Source: an uncultured Pelagibacteraceae bacterium
GTDB lineage: Bacteria; Pseudomonadota; Alphaproteobacteria; Pelagibacterales; Pelagibacteraceae
DNA length: 44,617 nucleotides
Reading direction: 5' to 3'
Assembly (NCBI GenBank): GCA_902574045.1
Contig: CACGMG010000005.1
Coordinates: forward strand, 1 to 44,617
The position numbers were made by a program, and so were the translations under genes. How positions within the stretch are numbered: position 1 is the first letter of the stretch; the number at the start of each line of letters is the position of its first letter. Shown here piece by piece: positions 16,287 through 26,234 of the stretch. The notes under the pieces are model-generated. The model did no database searches, was not told the origin of the DNA, and worked only from the letters and a program-made list of their open reading frames with translations.

Positions 16287-16964
16287 TTACTCAAAAGATT
16301 TCAAAAAAGGCTGCAACTTTGCAGCCTTTTTTTTTGCAACAAATAAACATGCATTTGAACTGAGTATCAATCCATCTTTAAGGACTCTTAAATTGTTATC
16401 AGCCAAAGTTTTACCAGTAGAAGTTATATCAGTAATTATTTCTGATGAGCCTATAAATGGATAGGTTTCAGTAGCGCCGAGACTAGGTATCAATTTATAT
16501 TGAGTAACTCCTTTGGAAATTAAAAAATCATTAGTCAAATTTGGATATTTAGTTGCTACCCTCAATCTAGTATTTCTTTTAGATCTAATATCAAATGATA
16601 CTTCTTCAATATCAGCAATGGTCTGAACATCTATCCAATCATCTGGTACTGCAATAACCAGGTTGGCATTACCAAAATCAAGTTTTCTTTGAACATTTAT
16701 TTTAACCTGTAAATTTTTCTCAGATTCTTTCAAGAGGTCTAAGCCGGATACACCTATATCTAAAGTTCCATCTCCTAATCTTTGAATAATTTCTTTAGCG
16801 TGAAGAAAAATAATCTTAATATTGTTTTTGTTTTCAATAGTTCCAAAGTAATTTCTTTCTTTTTCACTTTGTAATATCTTAAATCCTCTATCATTAAAAA
16901 ATGATATCGCTTTATCTTTTAAACGTCCTTTGCTTGGTAACCCTATGGTAATTAAATCTTTCAT
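16287..16964 (-). CDS. hisG: ATP phosphoribosyltransferase, short form catalytic subunit
   Basis: First step of histidine synthesis: ATP + PRPP to phosphoribosyl-ATP. 225 residues is the short form (HisGS), which lacks the C-terminal regulatory ACT-like domain and needs HisZ. HisZ is encoded immediately upstream with a 4-bp overlap. Motifs: GLPSKGRLKD near the N-terminus, GVSGLDLLKE, and the PRPP loop ITSTGKTLADNNL. The last 16 codons contain the groEL terminator hairpin, whose sequence is therefore under two constraints. The stop lies 8 bp from the groEL stop. Confidence 0.96.
   Translation of the reverse strand: MKDLITIGLPSKGRLKDKAISFFNDRGFKILQSEKERNYFGTIENKNNIKIIFLHAKEIIQRLGDGTLDIGVSGLDLLKESEKNLQVKINVQRKLDFGNANLVIAVPDDWIDVQTIADIEEVSFDIRSKRNTRLRVATKYPNLTNDFLISKGVTQYKLIPSLGATETYPFIGSSEIITDITSTGKTLADNNLRVLKDGLILSSNACLFVAKKKAAKLQPFLKSFE
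16303..16335 (+). terminator. intrinsic terminator of groEL, inside hisG
   Basis: Stem GGCTGCA (16309-16315), loop ACTT, stem TGCAGCC (16320-16326), then nine T (16327-16335). The run of six A on the left gives a T run on the other strand as well, so the element is bidirectional in form. It lies wholly within the last codons of hisG (stop at 16287-16289). Confidence 0.9.
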
Positions 16965-17998
16965 ATATTTTTTAAGTTAATTGCAGCACCTACAGCTGGA
17001 ATATTCTTATTAGCACCTAAGCTTTTAAGTAAGTCATCATAACGGCCGCCCCTAGCAATTTCTTTTTTGCCTGAATATACTTCAAACACAATTCCAGTAT
17101 AATATTCTACGTCCCTTCCAAAATTTGCAATAAAATTGACATCTTGATTTAGTCTTTTTAAATTAAGAATGGATTTTAAATCTTTAAAAATATTTTTTTT
17201 AAGATTATTTTTTTTAGCAAAATCTAGTAACCTCTCGTCAAGTTCTGAAAGTTTACAATTAATTTTTAAAAAGGATGCGATAATTTTTACAATTTTTTTT
17301 CCATCAGTAAAAGATCTTGGATCTTTTATCTTTTTATCAAACCTTTTTAAAATTTCTGATATTGACCTTCCAGCAACAACTTTATCTTGATCTAGTTTTT
17401 TCATTTCGTAAAATCTTTTTTTATCTGAATCAAAAGTGACTGCATCAATATCTGTATTTTTTTCCAATCTTTTCAAAAGCTCCTCAAAATAACTTGGCCT
17501 CCAAAAGTGTCTTATTAATCTTAACTTCCATCTTTCAGGCATATCTAGAGCATTAATTAAACTTTTAAATAAACTAATGTCTCCAACTTTAATTAAAATT
17601 TTTTTTCTTTTAATCTTTTTTGCTGAACTTAAAATTGTACTTATGATTTTAAAATCGTCCTGAATTTGATTTTTTGAACCTAGGATCTCAATCCCCAATT
17701 GGTCATTAATGAAATTCTTGCTTTTATTGCCTGATCTTCTATATGCTTGGCCAGAATAATAAATTTTCGAGGAAGATTTTTTTTGCAAGAAGCTTATGCA
17801 TGAGGCAACTGTCAAATCCGGTCTTAAGCACATCGTTTTTCCATCTTCACTATCAAAAGTAAGCATTGAACTTCTGAATTTTTCTCCTGATCGCTCAATA
17901 ATATAATCCGAATCTAAAAGAACATCGGGTTCTAATAAAACAAAACCGTTGCTCTTGAAAGTTTTAATAATATTTTCAGATAATTTTTTTGATTTCAT
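16961..17998 (-). CDS. hisZ: ATP phosphoribosyltransferase regulatory subunit HisZ
   Basis: A catalytically inactive paralogue of histidyl-tRNA synthetase that forms a hetero-octamer with short HisG and carries feedback control by histidine. It has class II synthetase-like segments: RSGEKFRSSMLTFDSEDGK, LRPDLTVAS (motif 2 region), YSGQAYRR, and the C-terminal ARGGRYDDLLKSLG. I start it at ATG 17996-17998 (345 residues) rather than at TTG 18017-18019, because ATG is preferred and reduces the overlap with hisS to 23 bp. It overlaps hisG by 4 bp. Confidence 0.9.
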   Translation of the reverse strand: MKSKKLSENIIKTFKSNGFVLLEPDVLLDSDYIIERSGEKFRSSMLTFDSEDGKTMCLRPDLTVASCISFLQKKSSSKIYYSGQAYRRSGNKSKNFINDQLGIEILGSKNQIQDDFKIISTILSSAKKIKRKKILIKVGDISLFKSLINALDMPERWKLRLIRHFWRPSYFEELLKRLEKNTDIDAVTFDSDKKRFYEMKKLDQDKVVAGRSISEILKRFDKKIKDPRSFTDGKKIVKIIASFLKINCKLSELDERLLDFAKKNNLKKNIFKDLKSILNLKRLNQDVNFIANFGRDVEYYTGIVFEVYSGKKEIARGGRYDDLLKSLGANKNIPAVGAAINLKNI

Positions 17999-19310
17999 TT
18001 GATAATTCTTTAATTTCAATAGATTTTTCTTCGCCTGAACTCAGATTTCTTAAAGTTGGTTTTCCTGATTTTATTTCATCTTCACCGTATAAAATTACAG
18101 CTGGAGATTTGATTTTATTTGCATACTCCATTTGCTTCTTTAATTTACTTTCTCCAGGATAAATTTCTGCGCTAATACCAGCTTTTCTTAATATCTTTTG
18201 TACACTTATATATTCTTTCATTGAATTTTTATCAAAAACACAAATTACTACAGGTTTAGATTGTTTTGCTTTAAATTCCTTTTTCTGCATTAGTGCATAC
18301 ACCAAACGATCTAATCCAATTGATATACCGGTTGCAGGAGCATCATAGTTACCAAAATTGTTTACTAAATTATCATATCTCCCTCCACCACCTATGGAAC
18401 CAAATTGAATTACCTGTCCTTTATTGTTTGTTACATCAAATTTTAAATTAACCTCAAAAATTGCACCAGTATAATACTCCAACCCTCTTATAATAGATGG
18501 ATCAAATTCAAAATTGTTAAAATTATAGTCTTTAAAAATTTTTAGTATTTCAACTAAATCTTCTGTGTCAGGTGATTTTCTCTTGAGTGTTTCTTCTATT
18601 GTTTTAATGTCCTTAGATTTTAAATCAGCACCTTTTGTGAAATCACCAGATTTGTCTTTTCTACCAGAACCTAATAGCTCTTTTACTCCATCCCAACCAA
18701 GTCTATCAATTTTATCTAGAGCTCGTAGGGTGGTAAGTTTTTTCTGATTATCATTTATATTTATTTTTTTAAATAGCGCTTCAGTGATTTTTCTTGAGGA
18801 AATCTTTATAATGTAGTCTGACTTAGTAAGGCCACACTTTTCAAGAATTTCTGAAATCATGACACATAGCTCGGCGTCTGCTTGTAAACTTTTTGTTCCA
18901 ACAAAATCAGCATCGAATTGTAGAAACTCTCTAAATCTTCCAGGTCCTGGTTTTTCATTTCTCCAAACTGTACCTAATTGATATCTTTTAAATGGTTTAG
19001 GAATTTCTAAATAATTTTTAGCAACATATCTGGCTAAAGGTGCAGTTAAGTCATACCTAAGGGACAACCACTTATTTTCATCTTTAAATGAAAAAACGCC
19101 TTCGTCAGGTCTATCTTTGTCAGGTAAAAATTTTCCAATACTATCAGAATACTCAAAACTTGGAGTTTCAAGATATTGAAACCCATACCTAATCATAACC
19201 TCTTTAATATTAGAAATTATAAAATCGCGTACGAGTAATTCTTTTTCTTGTCTATCAACAAACCCTAGAGGAAGTTCTTTCGAAGGTTTATTTTTTCTGT
19301 CTTTTGTCAT
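17976..19310 (-). CDS. hisS: histidyl-tRNA synthetase
   Basis: Class II synthetase charging tRNA-His, 444 residues. Motif 2 is RNEKPGPGRFREF (about 117-129). The His-binding stretch RGLEYYTGAIFEV and motif 3 region GGGGRYDNLVNNFG follow, and a C-terminal anticodon-binding domain closes the protein. In E. coli the motif 2 loop is ERPQKGRYRQF, where the Arg/Gln contact discriminator C73; here it is EKPGPGRFREF. The longer reading frame to 19376 is wrong, since it runs through the tRNA-His gene. The ATG at 19308-19310 is 4 bases after the tRNA CCA, so there is no room for an ordinary ribosome site. Confidence 0.96.
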   Translation of the reverse strand: MTKDRKNKPSKELPLGFVDRQEKELLVRDFIISNIKEVMIRYGFQYLETPSFEYSDSIGKFLPDKDRPDEGVFSFKDENKWLSLRYDLTAPLARYVAKNYLEIPKPFKRYQLGTVWRNEKPGPGRFREFLQFDADFVGTKSLQADAELCVMISEILEKCGLTKSDYIIKISSRKITEALFKKININDNQKKLTTLRALDKIDRLGWDGVKELLGSGRKDKSGDFTKGADLKSKDIKTIEETLKRKSPDTEDLVEILKIFKDYNFNNFEFDPSIIRGLEYYTGAIFEVNLKFDVTNNKGQVIQFGSIGGGGRYDNLVNNFGNYDAPATGISIGLDRLVYALMQKKEFKAKQSKPVVICVFDKNSMKEYISVQKILRKAGISAEIYPGESKLKKQMEYANKIKSPAVILYGEDEIKSGKPTLRNLSSGEEKSIEIKELSNEIKKII

Positions 19311-19314
19311 TTTT

Positions 19315-19391
19315 TGGTACAGCAGGGTGGATTCGAACCACCGACCCCTAGTTCCACAAACTAGTGCTCTAACCAACTGAGCTACTGCTGC
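19315..19391 (-). tRNA. tRNA-His (GTG anticodon)
   Basis: Full cloverleaf on the minus strand: acceptor GCAGCAG/CTGCTGT (the first pair is G-U), D-stem GCTC/GAGC, anticodon stem CTAGT/ACTAG with loop TTGTGGA (anticodon GTG), T-stem GGTGG/CCACC with TTCGAAT. CCA is encoded (19315-19317). The discriminator base is A73 and the base before position 1 is C, so the G-1:C73 pair that marks tRNA-His in most bacteria is absent. Loss of that pair is known for Alphaproteobacteria. It is followed after 4 bases by the hisS start codon. Confidence 0.97.
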
Positions 19392-19622
19392 GTCCTTTCT
19401 ATTTTTATCTTAATTTTTATTAAATTTATATATTTTTGATTATAAGCTAAGCAATAGCTTAGCGTGCATTCTGTGAGAATGGGATTTTAGGATAGAATTT
19501 GTATATTTTATAATCATTGATGTTTATGTAAGAAATAATTGTGTCTTTTTCAAGGAAATTATCGGGACAAAAAACTATTCAAAGCTCAATGTCCCGTTAA
19601 TTTATGTTTTTGGAAATAAGAT
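19392..19622. other. structured intergenic region between cold-shock gene and tRNA-His
   Basis: 231 bp without a recognisable gene. It holds three inverted repeats: GCTAAGC-AATA-GCTTAGC (19446-19463), CATTCT-GTG-AGAATG (19467-19481), and CGGGACA (19563-19569) with TGTCCCG (19590-19596) around a 20-base loop. The local G+C in these arms is above that of the surroundings, a trait of structured RNAs in such AT-rich genomes. It could be the 3' UTR of the cold-shock mRNA, an independent small RNA, or a processing leader for tRNA-His. None of the hairpins has a convincing T run on the minus strand. Confidence 0.45.
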
Positions 19623-19835
19623 TTAAGATGTTTTCTGCAATTTAACTGCGGAAGGACCTTTTTCTCCATTCTCCACTTCAAACGTTAACTCATCACCTTC
19701 GTTTAAGTATTTTAAACCAGCTTCTCTTACTGCTGAAGAATGAACGAACACGTCTTTTTCTTTGTCTTCTCTTTCAATGAAACCATATCCTTTAGTACCA
19801 TTGAACCACTTAACTTTACCTTTTAGTGTACTCAT
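19623..19835 (-). CDS. cold-shock domain protein (CspA family)
   Basis: A 70-residue single OB-fold RNA/ssDNA chaperone. RNP1 is KGYGFIE (15-21) and RNP2 is VFVH (29-32), with [10 protein letters not shown] ahead as in CspA. Start ATG with AAGGAAAA about 9 bases upstream. It has a consensus promoter at 19894-19922 and a hairpin at the predicted mRNA 5' end (19869-19886). The subtype (CspA, C, D or E) cannot be told by eye. Confidence 0.97.
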
Positions 19836-21183: not shown

Positions 21184-21189
21184 AATTAC

Positions 21190-21336
21190 AGATCGGGAGA
21201 GACTATTTAGATATAGCGCCGAAGGAGCAACCACCCCGGAAACTCTCAGGCAAAAGGACCGCAAATATAAACATTCTGGAAAGAGATAATATCTCACCGA
21301 AGGAGTAAATCTCTCAGGTACCAATACAGATGGGGT
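21190..21336 (+). ncRNA. tandem glycine riboswitch upstream of malate synthase
   Basis: Two aptamers in tandem. The first (about 21190-21263) holds GGGAGAG, GCGCCGAAGGAGCAA, and AACTCTCAGGCAAAAGGACCGC. The second (about 21272-21336) holds AGAGATAAT, CACCGAAGGAGTAAA, and ATCTCTCAGGTACCAATACAG. The CCGAAGGAG and CTCTCAGG blocks are the conserved glycine-binding core. Glycine riboswitches in front of malate synthase are known from SAR11, where glycine activates the gene; the direction of control here is inferred from that. The RNA ends only about 8-17 bases before the candidate start codons, and I see no terminator, so control at translation initiation is plausible. Confidence 0.95.
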
Positions 21337-21352
21337 CAAAAGATTGGTGCAA

Positions 21353-26121: not shown

Positions 26122-26138
26122 TATGCAAATAAATTTAA

Positions 26139-26228
26139 GAGGCAGGCAACAACCTGAAAAATTTTCACTACGGCTGCTTCTTTTCAGACCTGACCGGGTT
26201 TATGAAACATCCACCTGATGCCAACCTC
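26139..26228 (-). ncRNA. ffs: signal recognition particle RNA (4.5S type)
   Basis: The conserved apical domain reads GGTCAGGTCTGAAAAGAAGCAGCC with interruptions of the helix as in all bacterial SRP RNAs (about 26171-26195): the symmetric loop (CAGG/AGCAG) and a GNRA tetraloop GAAA. The outer stem is formed by GAGGTTGGCA (26219-26228) and TGCCTGCCTC (26139-26148), which pair with one mismatch. About 90 nt, small bacterial type without an Alu domain. It binds Ffh and FtsY in membrane protein targeting. Ends are good to a few bases. A promoter lies just upstream, and dnaX follows after about 17 bp. Confidence 0.93.
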
Positions 26229-26234
26229 ATTGAG

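Follow-up and report, generated by a model that had tools for sequence, protein, structure and literature searches.

Organization of the hisS locus

We analysed a 44,617-nt stretch of DNA from an uncultured SAR11 bacterium of the Pelagibacteraceae (hereafter the window), whose genome is represented by a 722-kb assembly of 35 contigs that is 67% complete. On the minus strand, the CCA end of a tRNA-His(GUG) gene lies 4 nt before the ATG of hisS, the junction reading CTGTACCA-AAAA-ATGACAAAAG, with CCA at 19317-19315, the AAAA spacer at 19314-19311 and the ATG at 19310-19308. The initial annotation had described this CCA-AAAA-ATG arrangement at 19310, and the description is exact by sequence, ARAGORN and Rfam. 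The tRNA-His gene (19315-19391, minus strand), the single tRNA that ARAGORN detected in the window, encodes its CCA, matches Rfam RF00005 with 71.9 bits, and carries the discriminator A73 and a G1:U72 pair without an encoded G-1, the base at -1 being C.

The hisS gene (17976-19310, minus strand) codes for a 444-aa histidyl-tRNA synthetase (HisRS) that exceeds the TIGR00442 cut-off of 286.75 bits with 378.4 bits, as do the proteins of the related loci L090 (349.9 bits), L081 (363.2 bits) and L099 (300.2 bits), and its start is kept in the family. Two other starts were rejected, namely one further downstream, since relatives share the start at ATG 19310 and the TIGR00442 match begins at residue 14, and a TTG within the tRNA, since the corresponding 466-aa ORF is a by-product of a frame that is open through the tRNA. 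The genes hisS, hisZ and hisG overlap head to tail on the minus strand: hisZ (16961-17998; NF008953, 290.6 bits, below the cut-off of 384) overlaps the end of hisS, and hisG (16287-16964; TIGR00070, 179.6 bits, cut-off 75.75) overlaps hisZ. Upstream of the tRNA, on the same strand, lies a cold-shock protein gene, csp (19623-19835; NF049933, 91.4 bits, below the cut-off of 120), which is the upstream neighbour kept in many relatives. Between them are an inverted repeat, GCTAAGC-TATT-GCTTAGC (19446-19463, minus strand), and a -10-like box, GATAAA (19404-19409, minus strand), which was recognized by motif counts in relatives and occupies positions -18 to -13 relative to the 5' end of the tRNA. 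The inverted repeat is possibly the csp terminator, though it has no T run and was absent from the terminator predictions for the window; similar GC-rich palindromic words also occur upstream in relatives. The order on the minus strand is thus csp, inverted repeat, an AT-rich stretch with GATAAA, tRNA-His, AAAA, hisS, hisZ and hisG.

Conservation of the tRNA-His/hisS gap in Pelagibacteraceae

We then collected hisS loci from relatives by protein search, which matched 49 of 61 genomes of the genus, 22 of 31 of the genus g4, 90 of 97 of the order and 32 of 43 further family genomes, and added 30 loci through a tRNA search. Removal of identical-sequence repeats left 177 loci, of which 163 are family loci with an upstream tRNA-His, two are family loci at contig ends (L189 and L191, where CCA and a short spacer are still visible) and 12 belong to the sister family; the family matches in G037 (start missing), G074 and G105 were left out. 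L097 was excluded from the counts for its irregular 3' end, which reduced the family set to 162 distinct loci. The tRNA-His of L097 (genome G328) has an unusual T loop and two additional bases that separate the discriminator from CCA, reflecting either a sequence error or an unencoded CCA.

The gap between tRNA-His and hisS is 4 nt in 115 loci, 5 nt in 38, 6 nt in three and 3 nt in two, with longer gaps of 27 nt (one locus), 28 nt (one) and 29 nt (two). The start codon is ATG in 162/162, and the 3-6-nt spacers are 90% A (609/674 bases). Named SAR11 records, freshwater Fonsibacter included, likewise have a gap of 4-5 nt in 29/29 cases, a sample that partly overlaps the 162-locus set. The initial annotation had suggested a comparison of the spacing with that in relatives; the spacing is indeed kept, at 3-6 nt in 158 of the 162 family loci, with little variation among close relatives, and no conserved hisS start further downstream with its own promoter was found.

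The four exceptions (L099, L167, L172 and L173) all belong to genus g4, and three of them group together in a single branch of the HisRS tree. Each of their 27-29-nt spacers holds a predicted stem-loop (-6.9, -4.7, -6.9 and -8.6 kcal/mol, respectively). Because these four family loci exist, a longer spacer is viable and the short gap is not indispensable.

Origin of the join and the possible contribution of genome compaction

Outside the family, the join was absent in 12/12 sampled sister-family loci (44 such genomes had a match). Three named records, which their HisRS sequences assign to the sister family, carry tRNA-His on the hisS strand at a distance of 1.4-2.4 kb upstream; in L305, a transporter gene on the opposite strand separates tRNA-Phe and tRNA-His from hisS. 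Among other Alphaproteobacteria, no tRNA was seen upstream of hisS in the best 28 loci of 146 genomes matched, and none of 48 named alphaproteobacterial loci has a tRNA within 10 nt of hisS; in this named set, L344 has tRNA-His 195 nt upstream of hisS, and one match, in L309, is located inside the gene. The join is absent from the sister family and the other Alphaproteobacteria sampled, and it therefore arose in the Pelagibacteraceae or just before.

The main rival to a functional interpretation is compaction alone, by which tRNA-His chanced to lie upstream of hisS, the intervening DNA was lost, and the join saves bases and nothing more, hisS being translated from any RNA that arises. Several observations favour this account, which we nevertheless consider rather unlikely. 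The median distance between genes in SAR11 genomes is 3 nt (PMC2704228). Among the 18 tRNA genes of the window's own genome, the gaps to the following ORF are 4 nt for tRNA-His, 6 nt for tRNA-Arg(TCT), 10 nt for tRNA-Leu(TAG) and 12 nt for tRNA-Trp, and in the complete genome G063 other tRNA genes also precede ORFs by 2-6 nt (Glu 2, Gln 3, Leu 4, Leu 4 and Pro 6 nt, besides His 4). Moreover, from the sister-family arrangement of tRNA-Phe and tRNA-His 1.4-2.4 kb upstream of hisS, the loss of one gene could create the join. A short tRNA-to-ORF gap by itself is not rare in such compact genomes; the unusual aspects are the cognate pairing and its conservation.

Against compaction alone, that account predicts short gaps, not the absence of drift across the family. 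As a control join we used tRNA-Trp/secE, which was found in 29 of 30 genomes queried (G020 yielded only another tRNA). Across 27 family genomes its gap, measured to the conserved secE start, ranges from 9 to 23 nt, whereas the tRNA-His/hisS gap in the same genomes is 4-5 nt in 26 and 29 nt in one; an earlier in-frame secE start in a few genomes would shorten the control gap to 2-8 nt. In two sister-family genomes, tRNA-Trp/secE measures 15 and 31 nt; the secE start of the 31-nt case and those of G110, G069 and G082 were judged by eye from the sequence. Since the tRNA-His/hisS gap is 3-6 nt in nearly all family loci against 9-23 nt for the control, chance does not account for its conservation. 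The hisS join is perhaps not the sole stable one, because tRNA-Leu(TAG) stands 10 nt from its ORF both in the window's genome and in G063. As a separate observation, loci L242-L266 of G063 suggest that such tRNA-punctuated joins might be widespread among SAR11 genes in general.

Exchange of HisRS and tRNA-His partners across a retained join

We also compared the tRNA-His genes and HisRS proteins across the family. A73 and G1:U72 are present in 162/162 tRNA-His genes, and the GUG anticodon in every accepted one, although the finder itself required that motif. Base -1 is T in 121 loci, A in 27, C in nine and, exceptionally, G in five. Most other positions vary, and the tRNA bodies differ widely, with the window type at one extreme and strongly altered forms in genus g4 at the other. 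In 11 aligned HisRS sequences, G122, the candidate glycine of the motif 2 loop, is invariant (numbered on the window protein, not in the Gly123 scheme of PMC3937112). A73, U72 and the lack of a consistent encoded G-1 match the alphaproteobacterial A73, G-1-less tRNA-His/HisRS pair as presented in the available parts of PMC3937112 and PMC9976931, and G122 may correspond to the motif 2 Gly of that pair; by contrast, gene adjacency is not mentioned in those parts, and many g4 tRNA-His bodies deviate strongly from the usual form.

In a phylogeny of 149 HisRS proteins, the family split into two deep clades with supports of 1.0 and 0.93. Clade II comprises much of g4 as well as L071, L199 and L200 (genera g2, g3 and g6), whose hisS genes stand behind ordinary type-A-like tRNAs. 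For L199 and L200, identity to the window is 55% and 51% in HisS, 62% and 61% in HisZ, and 91% and 93% in Csp, respectively, and for seven g4 loci it is 72-75% in HisS and 44-49% in HisZ. Since these identities diverge by gene, hisS and its neighbour genes have different histories as judged by their sequences. Strict co-replacement of tRNA and HisRS was rejected as a rule, because the tRNA type GCACGGG occurs with clade I (seven loci) as well as clade II (11 loci), and the three clade II hisS genes behind type-A-like tRNAs contradict it too; the same two observations indicate that hisS and tRNA-His were also swapped separately. Despite these exchanges, the join has been retained, as have A73, U72 and the GUG anticodon, and tRNA-His/hisS represents a cognate gene pair that remains joined while HisRS lineages swap. 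Persistence alone is not proof of selection, since the join could also have spread, without being selected itself, by recombination inside the tRNA gene.

Genus g4 (L084-L098 and L153-L173) holds the tRNA-His types GCACGGG, GCCCTGG, GCCCGGG, GCCTTGA and others, with HisRS in several deep groups. The tRNA-His elbow also shows a switch, noted at L090, L094, L121, L163 and other loci: a D-loop GG occurs with T-loop U55 (146 genes) and a D-loop AG with G55 (16 genes), with no exception among the 162 genes in our own numbering, L097 lying outside the count. In G063, tRNA-Val(GAC) and tRNA-Phe (L264 and L256) resemble this pattern.

Transcription of tRNA-His and hisS

A box of the form [TG]ATAA[ACT], starting -20 to -11 before tRNA-His, is present in 158/161 loci, and the adjoining 10-base bins contain it in 0 and 16 loci. 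From this positional conservation, the GATAAA box of the window is the probable promoter of a tRNA-hisS transcript. A generic sigma-70 scan listed neither the box nor any other site just before tRNA-His, because it demands a match at -35. A second promoter between tRNA-His and hisS was ruled out, four nucleotides being too short, and a consensus promoter scan of the hisS strand found none within the tRNA body. With no space for a promoter in the gap, the simplest arrangement is transcription that runs through tRNA-His into hisS, and the two genes very likely share one primary transcript. The initial annotation had likewise placed the cognate tRNA and synthetase in one transcription unit, which agrees with the lack of promoter space in the gap and with the conserved box upstream.

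In G063 (one contig, 99% complete), 33 tRNA matches were obtained, consisting of 30 with other anticodons, one tRNA-Leu, one fragment without an ARAGORN tRNA and the hisS-linked tRNA-His. No other tRNA-His gene was found there, and all tRNA-His of this genome thus comes from the tRNA-hisS unit.

Predicted processing of the transcript and the start region of hisS

We next consider how such a transcript might be processed. RNase E/G was found over the cut-off in 14/14 genomes. RNase Z was over the cut-off in 0/14, with weak partial matches in 12/14; since the cut-off was also missed by 5/14 control genomes, a diverged RNase Z is possible in these genomes. The RNase E match of the window's own genome (G000:C12:25078-26266) lies at a contig end and consists of two overlapping pieces with internal stops, which an error in assembly or frame probably explains. 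CCA is encoded in 18/18 tRNA genes of this genome and in 30/30 read in G063.

In the predicted fold of the junction, the acceptor stem is closed, and AAAAAUG and the next A-rich codons are unpaired. Codons 2-9 of hisS are 67% A, which is equalled or exceeded by only 2/35 other genes of the window, and the family mean is 64%. In E. coli, RNase E gains direct entry into tRNA precursors via single strands flanking the tRNA (PMC3985628); the hisS spacer and first codons, both rich in A and unpaired in the predicted fold, would fit such an entry site. Two further features were discarded as evidence, namely the stability of the junction fold, which does not exceed that of shuffled sequences (z -1.46), and the missing Shine-Dalgarno sequence, which 29/35 other genes of the window also lack. 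The ATG start in all family loci fits the AUG preference of leaderless mRNAs (PMC9031893).

Taken together, a single RNA that is subsequently cleaved probably gives rise to both tRNA-His and the hisS message, and the best reading of the sequences, which we favour with moderate confidence, is tRNA punctuation that would yield a near-leaderless hisS message. The locus would form a tRNA-punctuated operon of promoter, tRNA-His, hisS, hisZ and hisG, whose primary transcript would begin a few bases before tRNA-His, as the conserved -10-like box suggests. RNase P would cut the tRNA 5' end, and, judging from the enzyme content and from E. coli, RNase E would cut the A-rich single strand right after CCA, with exonucleases trimming the 3' end. 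The downstream product would then have its 5' end a few bases at most from the AUG and could be translated as a near-leaderless, A-rich, SD-free hisS mRNA, and this cut product is, on balance, likely to be the main translated form of hisS. RNase E could instead cut in the start region and destroy the hisS mRNA. Selection may keep the gap at 3-6 nt, either because the tRNA would mature more slowly with a longer tail or because the AUG must sit near the cut end.

The predicted fold, with the AUG unpaired next to the closed acceptor stem, would also suit an uncut RNA serving as the mRNA, in which the tRNA would be a structured, protective 5' leader and mature tRNA would come from another fraction of the transcripts. 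We regard this as very improbable: tRNA precursors are normally cut efficiently, the 30S footprint extends well upstream of the AUG and would reach into the acceptor stem, and no second tRNA-His gene was found in G063.

Possible coupling of HisRS level and tRNA-His

If tRNA punctuation produces the hisS message, tRNA maturation might regulate hisS output, as the initial annotation proposed, a putative role that we consider less likely than not. A more specific proposal, which we consider unlikely, is a putative synthetase-tRNA homeostat, in which HisRS and the tRNA-cutting enzymes would read the tRNA heading the hisS message; binding or cutting would decide the use of the AUG, tying HisRS output to tRNA-His, and the arrangement would have been kept through the lineage exchanges.

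Autogenous control would place the decision on HisRS itself, which would bind the tRNA-His of its own uncut transcript through the anticodon, A73 and U72, covering the AUG four bases away and shutting out the ribosome or the enzymes of processing; at low HisRS levels, the RNA would be cut and translated. The threonyl-tRNA synthetase gene thrS of E. coli is controlled via a tRNA-like operator. In the 162 family tRNAs, A73 and G1:U72 lie beside the start codon, and GUG (required by the finder) is likewise constant, most other positions being variable; A73, U72 and the anticodon are also the identity set shown in Caulobacter (PMC9976931). The same paper reports that yeast synthetases, including HisRS, recognize structures resembling anticodons in the mRNAs that encode them. 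A tRNA-shaped element next to the start of a synthetase message is shared with tRNA-mimic autogenous control. However, the SAR11 element is a real tRNA gene, unlike the mimics of E. coli thrS and yeast, and control by it is only putative. Furthermore, charging needs the conserved bases anyway, and in four loci a 27-29-nt stem-loop spacer separates the tRNA and the AUG. Autogenous control of this kind thus appears quite improbable to us.

Relation to known systems

In mitochondria, tRNAs punctuate the transcripts, and cutting them out frees many messages. The SAR11 locus resembles this system in that a tRNA stands a few bases from the next ORF and its excision would give a near-leaderless mRNA, but it differs in belonging to a free-living bacterium and in involving a cognate pair in a single operon with a promoter-like box, for which the cut is inferred here. 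E. coli has dicistronic tRNA-mRNA transcripts that are cut by RNase E, such as leuU-secG. These share with SAR11 a tRNA and an mRNA that would lie in one primary transcript, and the presence of RNase E, whereas their spacers are longer and contain a ribosome binding site, and their pairs are non-cognate. In pylT-pylS, a tRNA gene lies beside its own synthetase gene, like tRNA-His/hisS, but for a different synthetase and amino acid, and we know of no 4-nt abutment there. A full-text literature search returned no paper on the tRNA-His/hisS join, and its incomplete coverage precludes a first-report claim.

If tRNA punctuation holds, a major group of ocean bacteria would make a synthetase message by excising its own tRNA, in the manner of mitochondria. 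Enzyme and tRNA could then be balanced via one junction, and the locus would allow joint tests of tRNA maturation, leaderless translation and synthetase level in one simple setting.

Other RNA features of the window

Finally, two other RNA features were detected in the window. A small bacterial SRP RNA lies at 26135-26229 on the minus strand (53.6 bits), and a glycine riboswitch aptamer (21186-21271, plus strand; 60 bits) precedes a 725-aa ORF at 21344. A SAR11 glycine riboswitch controlling glcB is described in PMC5069720.
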